This document shows positions 27,179-35,777 of a stretch of DNA of 38,365 nucleotides, piece by piece (the first letter of the stretch is position 1; each line of letters opens with the position of its first letter). The notes below the pieces were generated by a model. That model ran no database searches. It saw only the letters and a program-made list of their open reading frames with translations, and had not been told where the DNA came from. Source of the DNA: an uncultured Prevotellaceae bacterium. GTDB taxonomy: Bacteria; Bacteroidota; Bacteroidia; Bacteroidales; Bacteroidaceae. The stretch is taken from assembly GCA_947167515.1 (NCBI GenBank), contig CAMVIM010000033.1, forward strand, positions 1-38,365. Reading direction: 5' to 3'. A program made the position numbers and the translations under genes.

Positions 27179-28660
27179 ATGAAAAAAATTAGCGTTATCT
27201 CATTTGTTGCTCTGATGGTGCTGTCCCTGTGTTCATGCAGTAACACGGACTATCAGAAAGTGATTCCAGCCAATTCGCCGTTGGTGGTGAAAGTGGATGT
27301 TCGGTCTTTAGCCGATAAGAGCGAGTTCGACAAGTCGGAGGCGATGCAGACGATGGAGAATGCCCTGACGGCGATGGTTTCCGACAAGGACATGGACCAA
27401 GTGAAGAAACTGATGAAGGATCCTATGGAAATGGGTTTTGACTTGAGCATGCCTGTCTATGCGTTTATGGCTGACATGGAAACATTCGGTCTCACGATGA
27501 AGGTGAATGATGAAGAGGCTGTGAAGGAATTCCTTCTGTTGCTCAATCGTCAGAGCATGAGTTCAAAGCCTGTGGAGAAAGACGGGTTGATGTGTGGCAC
27601 CTTGCTCGATGATTTCACTTATGCCTACGATGGTCAGAGTTTCCTCTTGTTGGGTTCCTCGAAGGGAGCTGGTAAGGCTGATGATTTGGCGCATCAGTTG
27701 ATGAATCAGGACGAGAAGCAAAGTTTTGTGTCATCCGAAGGCTACGAGCGTCTGGAAGATGTGGAGAAGGATGTCGTGATGTATATGGACTTTGCAAGTC
27801 TGCCTGAAAAGGCGATGAAGGATTATGCTGAGATATTGCCAAAGTCCTTGAAATATAAAGACCTAGAGGCTGTGGCGAGCCTGATGTTTGAGAAGGGTGA
27901 GGCTCAACTCTCTGCAAAAGTGTTTGGCAAGACTCAGGCAGCCAAGGACATCATTAAGGAGACCAACGACCATCTGGATGAGATAGATGGTGAATACCTC
28001 GATAAGGTGTCGGATGAGGCTGTTCTTTGGCTCGGTGCAGGCGTGAAAGGTGAGTGGTTGCTGAGCAAAATCAAGGAAAGTAAGGCTCTGAACGAGTTGC
28101 TCTTTGTGTTGGAACAGGCCATTGACGTGGAACAGATGATTCGTTCCATTGACGGTGATGTTTCGTTGGAGATTCCCACTTTAGATGCAGAGCGTGGTGG
28201 CATGGAGTTCGTTGCCTATGCAGAACTGGATAACTCGAAATTCTTGGCCGATGTGGAAGATTGGAAGAAGAGCCAGAAAGACTTTGGCATCGAGATGAAG
28301 GAGCAGGGCAAGAACCAGTACATTCTTACCATGAAGGGTGAAACCTTCAACTGGGGAGTGGATGACGATGACCTCTATATGGGTACCACTCGTGCGTTCA
28401 ACCATAGTAAGGAATCGACGGGTGCCTTGCTGAAGCCCTACAAGAAGCAGATTAAGGAAAGCCAGATGTTCTTGCTCGTGAACATTGCTGCTATGGGCTT
28501 GGATAACCAAATCAGTGACCGCTCAAAGGGTGCAGATTGGGCGAAGAAGAACCTGAAAGGCATCGACGCCATCATCTTGAAATCGGCATCGGCTGACGAG
28601 GGCACCTTGGTGATTGAGATGAAGAATAAGGATGAAAACTTCCTGAAACAAATTCTTTAA
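27179..28660 (+). CDS. DUF4836-like lipoprotein
   Basis: A predicted lipoprotein of 493 residues. The signal MKKISVISFVALMVLSLCSCS gives a lipobox cysteine. The mature protein starts with VIPANSPLVVKVDVRSLADKSEF, typical of Bacteroidales DUF4836 proteins, then repeated beta and helical segments with LLG and GVDDDDLYMGTTRAF-like strands. Function is unknown. A frame start at 27158 adds MFKSQRT, but the shorter start gives a proper signal peptide. The TAA overlaps the ATG of the ABC ATPase gene by one base (TAATGG), so the lipoprotein, ATPase and permease are likely translated together. Confidence 0.85.
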   Translation: MKKISVISFVALMVLSLCSCSNTDYQKVIPANSPLVVKVDVRSLADKSEFDKSEAMQTMENALTAMVSDKDMDQVKKLMKDPMEMGFDLSMPVYAFMADMETFGLTMKVNDEEAVKEFLLLLNRQSMSSKPVEKDGLMCGTLLDDFTYAYDGQSFLLLGSSKGAGKADDLAHQLMNQDEKQSFVSSEGYERLEDVEKDVVMYMDFASLPEKAMKDYAEILPKSLKYKDLEAVASLMFEKGEAQLSAKVFGKTQAAKDIIKETNDHLDEIDGEYLDKVSDEAVLWLGAGVKGEWLLSKIKESKALNELLFVLEQAIDVEQMIRSIDGDVSLEIPTLDAERGGMEFVAYAELDNSKFLADVEDWKKSQKDFGIEMKEQGKNQYILTMKGETFNWGVDDDDLYMGTTRAFNHSKESTGALLKPYKKQIKESQMFLLVNIAAMGLDNQISDRSKGADWAKKNLKGIDAIILKSASADEGTLVIEMKNKDENFLKQIL

Positions 28661-29304
28661 TGGATAAGATTCAACTGATTGATACACTTCCAAATGTATT
28701 TGTCAATCGCGATGATGTTGTGAGTGACATCTGGAACAAGGAAGTGTCATTTGAACGAGGAAAACTGTATCTGGTGGAAGCTAATTCTGGTACAGGAAAA
28801 TCCTCTTTGTGCAGTTACATTTATGGCTATCGCCACGACTATCAGGGACGCATCCTCTTCGACGGAGAGGATGTGCGTCTCTATTCGACTTCCCGATGGA
28901 CCGACATTCGCCAGAAGCGTTTTTCGCTCTTGTGGCAGGAACTGCGCATCTTTCCCGAACTGACAGCTCTGGAAAATGTCAACATCAAGAATAAGCTGAC
29001 GGGTTATCAGAAGAAGACGCAAATACTGGAGTGGTTCGAGATGCTGGGCATAGCCGATAAACTCGATGCGAAGATGGGGCGTATGTCTTTCGGACAGCAG
29101 CAGCGCGTGGCGCTCATCCGAGCCTTGTGCCAGCCTTTCGATTTCCTCTTTGTCGATGAACCTATCAGCCACCTTGACGATGCTAACTCTGACATCATGG
29201 GGCGTATCATGGCTGCTGAGGCCAAGCGTCAGGGAGCAGGCATCATTTCTACAAGCATTGGCAAGCACATCGAGTTGCCCTACGACCAAGTCTTTAACCT
29301 ATAA
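28660..29304 (+). CDS. ABC transporter ATP-binding protein (LolD-like, atypical)
   Basis: A 214-residue ATPase. Walker A is EANSGTGKSSLCS (about 41-50), the Q-loop LLWQELRIFPELTALENV (about 91-108), the signature MSFGQQQRVALI (about 142-153, SFGQQ replacing LSGGQ), Walker B DFLFVDEP with E167, and the D-loop SHLDD. The usual switch histidine after Walker B is not seen: the equivalent stretch reads GIISTSIGKH. The partner is the FtsX-type permease 14 nt downstream. Together with the upstream lipoprotein this resembles a MacB/LolCDE-type lipid, lipoprotein or cell-wall module. Substrate and direction are unknown. Confidence 0.85.
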   Translation: MDKIQLIDTLPNVFVNRDDVVSDIWNKEVSFERGKLYLVEANSGTGKSSLCSYIYGYRHDYQGRILFDGEDVRLYSTSRWTDIRQKRFSLLWQELRIFPELTALENVNIKNKLTGYQKKTQILEWFEMLGIADKLDAKMGRMSFGQQQRVALIRALCQPFDFLFVDEPISHLDDANSDIMGRIMAAEAKRQGAGIISTSIGKHIELPYDQVFNL

Positions 29305-29318
29305 TAGCGAGAAGGAAG

Positions 29319-30518
29319 ATGAATTTAGTTTGGAAACTTTTGAGACAGCACATCAGCATTCCGCAGTTTGTCGGCTTCTTCTTTGCCAATCTGGTCGGAG
29401 TGGTCATCATCCTGTTGGGTGTGCAGTTCTATCATGACTTTCAGGCACTCGACAAAGAGGATAGCTTTATGAAAGCCAGCTATCTGATTGTCAATAAGAA
29501 GATAAGTGCGTTTTCTACGTTGACTGGTGCTCAGCAGACCTTCAGCAAGTCCGATGTGGCTGACTTGAAGAACGAGGACTTCGTGGAGCGTGTCGGAGCC
29601 TTCACACCCAGTTCGTTCAATGTACGTGCCCGTTTTGATGTGCAGGGATTTGTGAACTTCTCCACTGAAATGTTTTTCGAGAGTGTGCCCGACGATTTTG
29701 TCGATGTGGCGAGTGAGGCATGGAACTATCAGGAAGGCAGCACTCAGATACCCATCATCTTGCCTAAGAACTATCTGGATCTCTATAACTTTGGCTATGC
29801 TCAGGGCAAGGGGCTTCCCAAACTCAGTGAAGGTATCCTTGGTGCCATGAAACTGAAGGTGCAGATTGCTGGTAATGGCGAAGTGGGCGACTTCGATGGT
29901 CGCATCGTGGGTTTCTCATCCCGTCTCAACACCATTCTCGTGCCTGAAAAGTTCATGCAATGGGCCAACCTGAAGTATGCCAGCAGCGAGAACACCAAGG
30001 AACCCACTCGGCTCATCATGGAAGTGAACAACCCTGCCGACGAGCGCATCACTGCTTATCTGCAAGACCACGACTACGAGACAGACAAAGAGAAACTCGA
30101 TGCATCCAAGACCACCTTCATCCTGCGTGTCATCGTCAGCATCGTCATGGTCATTGGTGCGGTCATCAGCATCCTTTCGTTCTACATTCTCATGCTCAGC
30201 GTCTTCCTGCTGGTGCAGAAAAACAGTACCAAACTCGAAAACCTGTTGCTCATTGGTTATTCGCCAGCCAAGGTTTCTTTCCCTTATCAGACTTTGACTG
30301 TCGGACTGAATGTCCTTGTATTCATCCTTGCTGTGGTCATCATGTGTGTGGCAAGAAACTACTATATCGGCATGTTTGAAAGTTTCTTTCCCGACTATAC
30401 AGTGCCGGACATCCTGCCAGCCTTGGGTGTCGGATTGGCCTTGCTCCTCATTGTCAGCATCTTCAATATCATGGCTGTATATGGCAAGGTGATGAGCATT
30501 TGGAAACGTAAAGATTGA
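29319..30518 (+). CDS. FtsX/LolE-type ABC transporter permease
   Basis: A 399-residue inner-membrane protein. A single helix at about 15-40 is followed by a periplasmic domain of about 220 residues. Three more helices lie near 267-300 (VIVSIVMVIGAVISILSFYILMLSVFL), 320-345 (LNVLVFILAVVIMCVARNYY) and 360-388 (ALGVGLALLLIVSIFNIMAVYG). This four-helix layout with a large first periplasmic loop is that of FtsX, LolC/E and MacB permeases. It follows its ATPase by 14 nt. Substrate cannot be inferred; the operon suggests an envelope role. The kinase/RapZ fusion begins seven nt after the stop. Confidence 0.85.
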   Translation: MNLVWKLLRQHISIPQFVGFFFANLVGVVIILLGVQFYHDFQALDKEDSFMKASYLIVNKKISAFSTLTGAQQTFSKSDVADLKNEDFVERVGAFTPSSFNVRARFDVQGFVNFSTEMFFESVPDDFVDVASEAWNYQEGSTQIPIILPKNYLDLYNFGYAQGKGLPKLSEGILGAMKLKVQIAGNGEVGDFDGRIVGFSSRLNTILVPEKFMQWANLKYASSENTKEPTRLIMEVNNPADERITAYLQDHDYETDKEKLDASKTTFILRVIVSIVMVIGAVISILSFYILMLSVFLLVQKNSTKLENLLLIGYSPAKVSFPYQTLTVGLNVLVFILAVVIMCVARNYYIGMFESFFPDYTVPDILPALGVGLALLLIVSIFNIMAVYGKVMSIWKRKD

Positions 30519-30525
30519 CGGATAG

Positions 30526-32070
30526 ATGGAAAGAATTACGCAATTATACAAGCAACAGACGGGACAGGTGCCTAAGAGCATCACCCCTTTGGCTGGCGCT
30601 GGCAGCAATCGCCGCTACTATCGGGTATGCGGAGAAGAGGGGCAACCGCCACTCATTGCTGTCATTGGCACCCATCCGGAAGAGAACGAGGCCTTCATTG
30701 CATGGGCGAGTTTCTTCGGGAAAAACGGACTTCCCGTGCCCGAACTCATGGCGGTGTCGGCTGACCGCATGGTCTATTTGCAAGAAGATTGTGGCAACAC
30801 CTCCCTCTATGACTACATGGTGGCAGGACGAAACTCCGATGGCACCTACAACGCTGAGGTCGTTGACGTTCTTCGCCAAACCATCAAGTGCCTTCCGCTT
30901 TTCCAGTTTTCGACAGAGGGCAACAGCGACCCCGACGAGGTATTCTCCCGTTGCTATCCCCAGCAAGAGATGGATCGAACCAACGTGATGTTCGACCTCA
31001 ATTATTTCAAGTACTGCTTTCTCAAACTGCGAGGCGTTGAGTTCAACGAGTTCAAACTCCAGCAGGACTTTGAACGTCTGGCCGATGCCCTCTTGGCCGA
31101 GCAGGGCAGCACCTTTCTCTATCGCGACTTTCAGTCACGCAACGTCATGCTGAAAGAAGGAAAGCCGTATTTCATTGACTTCCAAGGCGGTCGCCGAGGC
31201 CCCATCTACTACGATGTCGCCTCCTTCCTCTGGCAGTCCTCTGCCAAGTTCTCTGATGCGTTGCGCGGCCAACTCATTGACGAATACTTAAAAGCTCTCC
31301 AGCCTTTCAAGTCCTTGTCGAAAGCCGAATTTCTGCCCCAACTTCACCTCTTCGTCTTCTTCCGTATCCTGCAAGTGCTGGGAGCCTACGGCTATCGAGG
31401 ACTTTGGGAAAAGAAAGCCTACTTCATCAACAGCATTCCCCTTGCCATCACCAACCTGCAAAAGGAACTCGCTTTAGGCACCTGCGATGCCTATCCCTAC
31501 TTGAAAGAAATCGCTCAAACCCTCATCGTTCAAAACGAGCAGGAAGAAAAGAGTAAGGCTGCCGAAGATGCCAAGAAAGCCAAGGTCACCGCCTATCTGC
31601 AAAACGATACCACCTACATTCCCCAAGCCTCCCTCCCCATTACGGGAAAGGGTCGGGGAGAGGGTCTTCTTCATGTCAATGTCTTCTCCTTCTCCTTCAA
31701 GAAAGGCATCCCAGCCGATGAATCCGGCAACGGAGGTGGCTATGTGTTTGACTGCCGCAGCACCCACAACCCTGGTCGTTACGAAGAGTACAAGCCGCTC
31801 ACAGGACTTGACCAACCCGTCATAGACTTCCTTGAGGCAGATGGAGAAATCCTCACCTTCCTCGACAGCATCTACAAACTCGTCGATTTCCATGTGGCAC
31901 GTTTCATCGAACGCGGCTTCACCCATCTGCAAATCTCCTTTGGATGCACAGGTGGTCGCCACCGTTCCGTCTATTCCGCCCAGCATGTGGCAGAACACAT
32001 CCACAAGAAGTTTGGCGTGGAAGTTTACATTTGCCACCGCGAACAAAACATCACCCAAGTATTGAAATGA
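30526..32070 (+). CDS. Amino-sugar kinase fused to RapZ C-terminal domain
   Basis: A 514-residue cytoplasmic fusion. Residues 1 to about 340 are an aminoglycoside-phosphotransferase-like kinase similar to AmgK: GAGSNRRYYRV nucleotide loop, catalytic loop YRDFQSRNVM with D201 and N206, and the metal-binding FIDFQGGRRGPIYYD. Residues about 378-514 match the RapZ C-terminal domain, with FSFKKGIPADESGNGGGYVFDCRSTHNPG, PLTGLDQPVIDFLE and the invariant GCTGGRHRS (473-481). The normal RapZ N-terminal P-loop domain is absent. The linker (367-380) contains a GKGRGEG stretch from a GC-rich repeat. AmgK phosphorylates MurNAc at C1. RapZ in E. coli senses glucosamine-6-phosphate and delivers RNA to RNase E. 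The murU-like gene overlaps by ATGA. Confidence 0.85.
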   Translation: MERITQLYKQQTGQVPKSITPLAGAGSNRRYYRVCGEEGQPPLIAVIGTHPEENEAFIAWASFFGKNGLPVPELMAVSADRMVYLQEDCGNTSLYDYMVAGRNSDGTYNAEVVDVLRQTIKCLPLFQFSTEGNSDPDEVFSRCYPQQEMDRTNVMFDLNYFKYCFLKLRGVEFNEFKLQQDFERLADALLAEQGSTFLYRDFQSRNVMLKEGKPYFIDFQGGRRGPIYYDVASFLWQSSAKFSDALRGQLIDEYLKALQPFKSLSKAEFLPQLHLFVFFRILQVLGAYGYRGLWEKKAYFINSIPLAITNLQKELALGTCDAYPYLKEIAQTLIVQNEQEEKSKAAEDAKKAKVTAYLQNDTTYIPQASLPITGKGRGEGLLHVNVFSFSFKKGIPADESGNGGGYVFDCRSTHNPGRYEEYKPLTGLDQPVIDFLEADGEILTFLDSIYKLVDFHVARFIERGFTHLQISFGCTGGRHRSVYSAQHVAEHIHKKFGVEVYICHREQNITQVLK

Positions 32071-32825
32071 ACGCACTCATCTTTGCAGCCGGATTGGGCA
32101 CTCGTCTCAAACCGCTCACAGACACGATGCCCAAAGCGATGGTGCCTGTATGTGGCAAACCGCTCGTGCAAATCCTCATCGAGAAACTGAAAGGCATCGG
32201 CGTTGACCACATCGTCATCAACGTCCATCACTTTGCCCAGCAAATCATCGACTTTGTTCAGGCCAACCGCAGTTTCGGCATCGACATCCAGTTCAGCGAC
32301 GAGACTGACATGCTTCTCGAAACGGGTGGGGGATTGAAGAAGGCCGCTTGCCTCTTTCCCAATGCTGACCCCATCCTTGTTCACAATGTTGACATCCTTT
32401 CCAACGCCGACCTCCTTTCCCTCTACAACGAAGGGCGCACCACCGATGCAACCACCCTCCTTGTGTCCGACCGAAAGACCCAGCGCTACCTCCTTTTCGA
32501 TGCAGCCGACCGTCTTGTGGGTTGGGTGAACATGGCGACGGGACAGGTGAAGTCGCCCCATCCCGAATTATTGGCTCATGAGGGTGACACCACCTATTTT
32601 GAGCAGCATCCCACGTTCAAGAAATACGCCTTTGCCGGCATTCAAGTTTTTCAGCCCTCGCTCCTTCCCCTCATGGGTTCTTGGGAAGGAAAGTTCTCCA
32701 TCATCGACTTCTACCTCGCCATCTGCGACCAGGTGCCCATCCGTTGCCACTTCGACCCCCAACTCCATTTGCTCGATGTGGGAAAACTCGACACCATCGC
32801 CAAAGCAGAGGAATTTCTGTCATAA
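32067..32825 (+). CDS. murU: MurU-like MurNAc-1-phosphate uridylyltransferase
   Basis: A 252-residue nucleotidyltransferase. The signature AAGLGTRLKPLTDTMPKAMVPVCGKP is at about 6-31, followed by an NVHHFAQQI stretch, SDETDMLLETGGGLKKA (about 73-90), the metal-binding VHNVDIL, and AFAGIQVFQPSLLPLM near 190. This is the MurU/RmlA-like fold without an acetyltransferase tail. In Pseudomonas MurU makes UDP-MurNAc from the AmgK product, so the pair bypasses de novo MurA/MurB synthesis. Another hexose-1-phosphate could be the substrate, but the kinase partner supports MurNAc. The ATG at 32067 is in the stop region of the kinase fusion. Confidence 0.87.
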   Translation: MNALIFAAGLGTRLKPLTDTMPKAMVPVCGKPLVQILIEKLKGIGVDHIVINVHHFAQQIIDFVQANRSFGIDIQFSDETDMLLETGGGLKKAACLFPNADPILVHNVDILSNADLLSLYNEGRTTDATTLLVSDRKTQRYLLFDAADRLVGWVNMATGQVKSPHPELLAHEGDTTYFEQHPTFKKYAFAGIQVFQPSLLPLMGSWEGKFSIIDFYLAICDQVPIRCHFDPQLHLLDVGKLDTIAKAEEFLS

Positions 32826-32858
32826 ATCCATCACTCTTTCCGAGGAACGGTAGAAGCC

Positions 32859-32973
32859 TCCTGTGCCTCTGCGGCACAACTTTTTTCGCCCTTGCGTAAT
32901 AGCCTCTTTCGCCTTTACGTAATATCCACCTGTACCCTTGCGTAATAACCTCCTGTGCCTCTGTGCCGTTTCC
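32859..32973. repeat. 23-bp tandem array, five copies
   Basis: Units at 32859-32881, 32882-32904, 32905-32927, 32928-32950 and 32951-32973 are each exactly 23 bp. Three contain GCGTAATA or ACGTAATA, and the outer two begin TCCTGTGCCTCTG. Units two and three match at 19 of 23 positions. The last unit also contains GTGCCGT, the core word of the 20952-21089 array. Confidence 0.9.
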
Positions 32974-32989
32974 ACTTTAGATTCATTCT

Positions 32990-33073
32990 ATGAATCATAA
33001 AAATCATACTATGAATTATACAATTCAAAGAATGAATCATATAATTCATAGTATGAATCTAAGAATTTGACTG
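32990..33073. repeat. 21-bp tandem array, four copies plus a partial
   Basis: ATGAAT recurs at 32990, 33011, 33032 and 33053, a strict 21-bp period, and a partial unit precedes it (32976-32989). Units also carry ATTCAT, so each has internal dyad symmetry. The outer 23 bp (32977-32999 and 33040-33062) form an inverted repeat with 21 of 23 matches. Confidence 0.9.
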
Positions 33074-34967: not shown

Positions 34968-35777
34968 ATGCTTAAAATGAAAAAATCTATTTATATGTCA
35001 CTTGCAGCAGTTCTTCTGCTGCTGGCGAGTTGCACGTCTTACAAGAATGTGCCTTATCTGCAGAACAGCGACAAAGTGGATTTGAGTCCTGCCACGATGC
35101 TGTATGATGCTAAGATTATGCCTAAGGACCAACTGGTTATCAATGTGAATTATCCGACTGACCCAGATGCGGTGAAGATGTTCAATCTGGTGACAGTGGC
35201 AGAGAACACTACTTCGGCCACTTCATCAAGACTTTCATCGCAGATGCAAGTGCAGACCTATCTGGTGGATAACGAGGGCTACATCAACTATCCACTTTTG
35301 GGTCGTCTGCATGTGGGTGGACTGACGAAGACGGAACTGGAGAATCTGCTGGCTTCGAAAATACAAGGCTCATACACGAAAGAGGCTCCGCTGGTCTATG
35401 TGCAGATGTCGAACTACAAGGTGTCGGTGCTGGGCGAGGTGGCTCGTCCTGGCCAATATATGGCCACAACGGGTAAGGTCAACATCTTTGAGGCATTGGC
35501 TATGGCAGGCGACCTGACCATCTGGGGACAGCGCGACTGTGTGAAGATTATTCGCGAAAATGAAAAGGGCGAAAAGAAGATCGTTCCGATGAATCTGAAC
35601 GATGCCAACATCATCAATTCTCCTTACTATCAGTTGCAGCAGAACGACATCGTGTATGTGACACCTAACAAGACTAAGGCTAAGAACTCTGGTGTGGGTT
35701 CGGAAACAAGTCTCTGGTTCACTTCGACCAGCATTCTCGTCTCACTCACATCGCTGCTCTACAACATTCTTAAGTAA
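34968..35777 (+). CDS. Wza-like polysaccharide export lipoprotein
   Basis: A 269-residue outer-membrane lipoprotein. The signal MKKSIYMSLAAVLLLLASC gives the acceptor cysteine, after which comes SYKNVPYLQNSD, usual for Bacteroidetes Wza homologs. The Poly_export domain spans about 40-130, with the YLVDNEGYINYPLLGRLHVGGLTKTELENLL motif. A SLBB domain follows (about 140-220, VSVLGEVARPGQY), and a C-terminal membrane segment (WFTSTSILVSLTSLLYNIL) may form an outer-membrane helix. It starts at ATG 34968 or, equally well, 34977. No Wzc kinase, glycosyltransferase or flippase is nearby. Confidence 0.92.
   Translation: MLKMKKSIYMSLAAVLLLLASCTSYKNVPYLQNSDKVDLSPATMLYDAKIMPKDQLVINVNYPTDPDAVKMFNLVTVAENTTSATSSRLSSQMQVQTYLVDNEGYINYPLLGRLHVGGLTKTELENLLASKIQGSYTKEAPLVYVQMSNYKVSVLGEVARPGQYMATTGKVNIFEALAMAGDLTIWGQRDCVKIIRENEKGEKKIVPMNLNDANIINSPYYQLQQNDIVYVTPNKTKAKNSGVGSETSLWFTSTSILVSLTSLLYNILK

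Follow-up and report, generated by a model that had tools for sequence, protein, structure and literature searches.

AnmK generates MurNAc-6-phosphate (MurNAc-6P), which needs either MurQ or a phosphatase. The salvage route reported for Pseudomonas runs from AnmK through MupP and AmgK to MurU (PMC13041923); the search for MupP, a HAD protein, had looked for a gene that accompanies amgK and is lacking in murQ-bearing genomes (PMC5371407). The second described system of relevance is the RapZ/YvcJ family. The anion site of E. coli RapZ is reported to be formed by loop residues together with H190 (PMC5737377).

The locus analysed here lies in a window of 38,365 nucleotides from an uncultured Prevotellaceae bacterium, to which all coordinates refer, and encodes a kinase fused to the C-terminal domain of RapZ (RapZ-C), followed by a murU-like gene. 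The arrangement resembles the AmgK-MurU pathway of Pseudomonas, which includes MupP, in that the gene for an anomeric sugar kinase lies beside murU and the same order of reactions is predicted. It differs from that pathway in that the kinase carries, or precedes, a RapZ-C domain, the fusion protein contains no HAD domain in a Pfam scan and no AnmK was found in the window's own genome. Compared with RapZ/YvcJ, the N-terminal P-loop domain (PF03668) is absent from the fusion protein in Pfam and was not found in its own genome, the residues H190, W191, R238 and K270 are not kept in the fusion, and a GGG insertion has been added. The fusion protein very probably belongs to MurNAc salvage. No description of such a fusion was found in a search of the open-licence literature; within the same literature, nothing was found on RapZ together with AmgK, and RapZ together with 'aminoglycoside phosphotransferase' led only to what appears to be a gene-detection assay.

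Data sets and definitions

Genomes were sampled at the level of the phylum and of the class of the window; the two samples overlap, with six RapZ-C genomes common to both. A murU gene was considered directly downstream if it lay on the same strand with a gap of -200 to 600 nucleotides. Loci L028-L107 were found by patterns containing GCTGGQHR or [NH]GGG[FY]VFD, which biases the conservation seen in the alignments A2 and A3. The fair set for conservation consists of 39 domains found by HMM, one of them (L190) incomplete, from which the window copy was left out. These 39 domains and 30 acidobacterial RapZ-type domains were compared with E. coli RapZ. The logic of the MupP search was reused by comparing the presence of RapZ-C with that of MurQ among AnmK-positive genomes.

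The fusion gene and its kinase domain

The fusion gene (30526..32070, forward strand) is an open reading frame of 514 amino acids with an ATG start. It carries the APH domain PF01636 at residues 19-257 (30580..31296, forward strand; 60.6 bits against a Pfam cut-off of 23.2) and the RapZ C-terminal domain PF22740 at residues 383-507 (31672..32046, forward strand; 117.6 bits against a cut-off of 27, profile positions 2-120 of 121), and the two matches within one frame bear out the kinase-RapZ fusion proposed in the initial annotation. The AlphaFold2 model of the whole protein has a pLDDT of 92.9, with a linker of low confidence (pLDDT below 50) at residues 363-379 (31612..31662, forward strand). 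The possibility that the G-rich stretch of the linker is a genomic repeat was rejected, with one match in the window and two in the genome, one of these with two mismatches.

The APH kinase fold with the catalytic Asp and Asn is present in the fusion protein. Residues D201 to N206 in the motif YRDFQSRN (31126..31143, forward strand) presumably form the catalytic loop, as judged from the invariance of D201 and N206 and from their role in the APH family; an alignment of 22 fusions including the window copy shows no variation at D201, N206, D218 and Q220, and D201, N206 and the IDFQGG stretch occur as originally described. The structural match to 3csv, a putative aminoglycoside phosphotransferase of Silicibacter sp. 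TM1040 with 17% identity, extends to residue 342 of the fusion, the 333-residue chain of 3csv matching the kinase part only. Where 3csv has the His of an HRD motif, each of the 22 aligned fusions has Tyr or Phe instead (YRD/FRD; residue 199).

The murU-like gene and the nature of the sugar

The murU-like gene (32067..32825, forward strand) encodes a sugar-1-phosphate nucleotidylyltransferase of 252 amino acids (PF00483, 59.3 bits). The expected ATGA overlap between the stop of the fusion gene and the start of murU was found at 32067..32070 (forward strand), and the span 30526-32825 that had been assigned to the pair covers both genes correctly; the program-made list of open reading frames places the murU-like start further upstream, at 31944.

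Both proteins are most similar to the MurNAc salvage enzymes at scores under the equivalog cut-offs. The fusion kinase reached 49.9 and 30.4 bits with the AmgK models NF045759 and NF045698 (cut-offs 550 and 500), still the best kinase models in NCBIfam, and the murU-like protein 114.8 and 105.3 bits with the MurU models NF045761 and NF045697 (cut-offs 250 and 370), the best two of 39 matching models. These low scores, together with a polysaccharide export gene at 34968-35777 of the window, might suggest that the substrate of the two enzymes is not MurNAc but a different sugar, such as a precursor of an exopolysaccharide. Such a role is improbable, given that AmgK and MurU are nevertheless the best NCBIfam models for the two proteins, that the pattern of MurQ (see below) argues against it, and that AmgK and MurU of T. 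forsythia are reported to support labelling with MurNAc probes in E. coli (PMC13041923), the available part of that source not establishing the T. forsythia AmgK as a fusion. By position, the murU-like gene has the neighbourhood of a MurU, as it adjoins an amgK-like gene.

Distribution and partnership with MurU

Of the 247 genomes sampled from the window's phylum, 27 contain PF22740. The domain forms a fusion with the kinase at 22 of these loci, stands as a separate gene between the kinase and murU at four, and lacks a kinase nearby at one (G180). Full-length MurU (at least 146 bits) is present in 26 of the 247 genomes, all 26 of which have RapZ-C, so that 26 of the 27 RapZ-C genomes have full-length MurU (Fisher p 2.6e-34, a value that is too small since related genomes are not independent). 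The co-occurrence holds also in five genomes of this sample with murU on another contig. The next MurU-like matches, of 120 bits in G009 and 117 bits in G231, are both in genomes without RapZ-C, and the rest do not exceed 87 bits.

The number of murU neighbours across genomes bears out the coupling with MurU that had been predicted from the single locus, since murU lies directly downstream in 21 of 27 phylum loci, in 12 of 13 new loci of the class sample and in 56 of the 80 named loci (the best 80 of 583); among 41 genomes of the genus to which G247, a Tannerella sp. MAG, belongs, 13 have the domain, with 13/13 copies fused and 13/13 having murU directly downstream. The named relatives, again the best 80 of 583, are fused in 80 of 80 cases, in a search by the fusion alignment that favours fusions, which argues against a chance or assembly join; they include MAGs of Elusimicrobia, Acidobacteriota, Ignavibacteriales and Saprospirales. 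Thus, the fusion and its link to MurU are real and widespread, and the proposed connection to amino-sugar metabolism is supported along with them. The regular pairing with MurU in related bacteria suggests that the RapZ half probably serves the recycling of cell-wall sugars and not the control of RNA.

The suggestion that the kinase has replaced the P-loop domain stands in part. It agrees with the lack of PF03668 in the window's own genome, but since 4 of 27 loci have RapZ-C as a separate gene between the kinase and murU, it is equally possible that RapZ-C was added to a kinase-murU pair already in place. In the Acidobacteriota, PF22740 occurs in 101 of 119 genomes, mostly in frames near the length of RapZ; as a second test, this phylum offers too few copies of fusion length. 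Three of its genomes (G260, G337 and G348) have a frame of RapZ length (315-350 aa) and a separate frame of fusion length (482-580 aa) with PF22740, and seven further single copies lie in open frames of 499-635 aa.

Individual genomes depart from the common arrangement. G009 carries a kinase-murU pair without RapZ-C (L138:4090-5801), in a genome without an AnmK match or a clear MurQ; G231 has both AnmK and MurQ. The RapZ-C gene of G180 (L140:8935-9336) is free-standing and encodes 133 amino acids, with no kinase or murU found in the 18 kb covered; its genome possesses AnmK and a MurU-like gene of 78 bits and lacks a clear MurQ.

Conservation of the phosphate loop and of the RNA face

The window domain has the fold of the E. 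coli RapZ C-terminal domain (CTD), with 36% identity over the fold, and the fusion protein scores 100.8 bits with the NCBIfam RapZ model NF003828, below its cut-off of 244. A C-x5-R-S loop that follows a strand and leads into a helix is the signature of cysteine phosphatases. The loop CTGGRHRS (residues 474-481, corresponding to C247..S254 of E. coli; 31945..31968, forward strand) has a predicted strand before it and a helix after it, an arrangement that the window domain shares with the PTP-type cysteine phosphatases, in which C-x5-R-S/T lies between strand and helix. The comparison of folds does not single out phosphatases.

The motif GCTGGRHRS is intact at residues 473-481, as first noted. 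The ligand pocket as a whole is not: five of the six RapZ pocket residues (H190, C247, T248, G249, H252 and R253) are kept in the window, those of the loop, and the sixth, H190, is Gly. All 39 relatives and all 30 acidobacterial domains share C247, T248, G249, G250, H252, R253 and S254 with E. coli RapZ. The equivalent of H190 is Gly in the 39 relatives as in the window, and His in 18 of the 30 acidobacterial domains; a glycine-rich (GGG) insertion that directly precedes the YVFD strand occurs in the Bacteroidota set only. Judged from these alignments, selection acts strongly on the phosphate loop and only in part on the RNA face of E. coli, and the sugar side of the pocket appears to have been remodelled. 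A role of RapZ-C with a sugar-phosphate is strongly indicated.

The initial annotation had also proposed control at the RNA level, with the domain binding small RNAs or mRNA like E. coli RapZ. Besides the overall homology, this could find favour in the equivalent of K170, which is basic in 36 of 39 relatives, in R184, kept in 38 of 39, in the equivalent of R196, which is Lys in 31 of 39, and in Lys or Arg at the positions of K281 and R282 in some relatives. The proposal is not supported, as the E. coli RNA contacts H190, R238 and K270 have given way to other residues in all 39 relatives and the basic run at the C-terminus of E. coli RapZ is missing from the window, where K281, R282 and K283 correspond to I, T and Q (mixed in the relatives). 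The position of R238, replaced in the window, is aromatic in all 39 relatives and Lys or Arg in all 30 acidobacterial domains; that of K270, likewise replaced, is non-basic in all 39, and the median net charge of the tail is 0.5 in the relatives versus 2.0 in the acidobacterial set. A basic residue at K270 is rare in the acidobacterial domains as well (Arg in 3 of 30), which would follow if the RNA-binding part of the enterobacteria is a special case. That part is said to be restricted to the Enterobacteriaceae in the available portion of one source (PMC7073468), and YvcJ homologues are likewise described as being without it in that of another (PMC7525490). Binding of RNA by the domain is thus highly improbable.

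A purely structural role, with RapZ-C doing no more than dimerising the kinase or docking MurU, would agree with the retention of F181 and D182 in 38 of 39 relatives (a gap in the remaining one), these residues being implicated in the dimer of the E. coli CTD (PMC5737377). A scaffold would not need invariant loop residues, and the pair in G009 exists without RapZ-C; such a role is unlikely.

A possible phosphatase or sensor

The module as a whole is very probably one of MurNAc salvage of the anabolic AmgK-MurU type. On the basis of their families, the N-terminal domain is expected to phosphorylate C1 of MurNAc, perhaps also that of GlcNAc, and MurU to convert the product of the kinase into UDP-MurNAc. 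The target of RapZ-C would be a sugar-phosphate from this pathway rather than RNA; the domain may bind an amino-sugar-6-phosphate in the C-x5-R-S loop and remove the phosphate, chemistry and substrate both being conjectural. It would then be a cysteine phosphatase, a non-HAD counterpart of MupP, handing free MurNAc to the attached kinase. The probability that RapZ-C is such a built-in MurNAc-6P phosphatase of the salvage module is put at roughly 0.4.

Several reports on the family are consistent with hydrolysis. A review of E. coli RapZ likens the pocket to the loop of the tyrosine phosphatases (PTP) and suggests possible hydrolysis (PMC7199280). The E. coli variants C247A and C247S are reported to be inactive, and the density seen in the E. 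coli CTD with GlcN6P is described as 'likely a chemically transformed product' (PMC9841335). Both NTPase and phosphatase activity have been ascribed to YvcJ, the active domain not being specified in the available part of the source (PMC7525490).

The same loop would also suit a sensor, in which RapZ-C binds a sugar-6-phosphate (GlcN6P or MurNAc-6P) without hydrolysis and switches the kinase, matching salvage to the de novo supply of precursors. The E. coli CTD alone binds GlcN6P with a reported KD of 10 nM, and full-length RapZ is reported to give no response with GlcN or Glc6P (PMC7073468). The invariance of the phosphate loop and the covalent attachment of RapZ-C to a pathway enzyme also fit sensing, as does the window's order, since a sensor does not need AnmK. 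On the other hand, Gly at H190 in 39 of 39 relatives, with the GGG insertion nearby in sequence, means that the ligand may differ; the invariance of the Cys exceeds what binding seems to require, and the AnmK/MurQ pattern is left unexplained. Sensing is quite possible, with the phosphatase slightly ahead of it.

The pattern in question appears when AnmK-positive genomes are divided by MurQ, which was scored absent if the best E-value exceeded 1e-40 (this includes a partial match of 1e-20 in G544); the genome lists were compiled by eye, partly by hand, and the AnmK counts include partial or weak matches in G216, G390, G490 and G510. In the phylum sample, 8 of 8 MurQ-negative genomes carry RapZ-C, versus 10 of 163 MurQ-positive ones (p 2.8e-9, kinship ignored). 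The overlapping class sample gives 9 of 18 versus 3 of 212 (p 2.3e-9, kinship ignored), and nine of its genomes have AnmK with neither MurQ nor RapZ-C. A simple association of AnmK with RapZ-C was rejected (18/27 versus 153/220); only the pattern conditioned on MurQ holds.

AnmK itself is unevenly distributed. Among the RapZ-C genomes of the class sample, it is found in 12 of 12 outside the window's order and in 0 of 7 within its family or order, the window's genome included. A selection of 18 fusion genomes from the named loci (the best 80 of 583) includes 7 with AnmK, namely the Tannerella sp. MAG and six outside the Bacteroidales, one of them by a partial match. Since AnmK is missing from the window's lineage, a phosphatase there would have to obtain MurNAc-6P by a different route; alternatively, the domain may now have another function, such as sensing. 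No recurrent phosphatase gene was recognised nearby among the 23 clusters of open reading frames found in at least 6 of 81 loci, the leading sequences having been judged by eye and some clusters being antisense frames.

It is conceivable, but doubtful, that RapZ-C was at its root a cysteine-dependent amino-sugar-6-phosphate phosphatase, acting as a non-HAD MurNAc-6-phosphate phosphatase in or beside AmgK in Bacteroidota and a few other phyla, and that the sensing of GlcN6P and the binding of small RNAs by E. coli RapZ are a later re-use of the old active site. If RapZ-C is the phosphatase, a role of the RapZ C-terminal domain outside the enterobacteria would be shown, the phosphatase step of cell-wall recycling could be filled in the Bacteroidota that carry the fusion, and RapZ as a GlcN6P-transforming enzyme would be directly testable in a protein without the key RNA contacts. 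Even if the domain is a sensor, the fusion would provide one polypeptide in which control of a salvage kinase by a ligand is measurable.

Neighbouring genes and repeats

Two co-directional genes lie upstream of the fusion gene, one for an ABC ATPase (28660-29304, forward strand) and one for an FtsX-like permease (29319-30518, forward strand; PF02687 at 19.7 bits, under the cut-off), which ends 7 nucleotides before the fusion gene; both are probably on the same transcript as the fusion. The permease-like gene recurs in 8 of the 81 loci compared (80 named loci and the window), and a functional tie to the fusion is only putative. The intergenic region after murU (32850-33064) contains imperfect tandem repeats of 23 nucleotides at 32866-32975, followed by an AT-rich inverted repeat of 41 nucleotides with arms at 32977-33017 and 33022-33062 that are 83% complementary.
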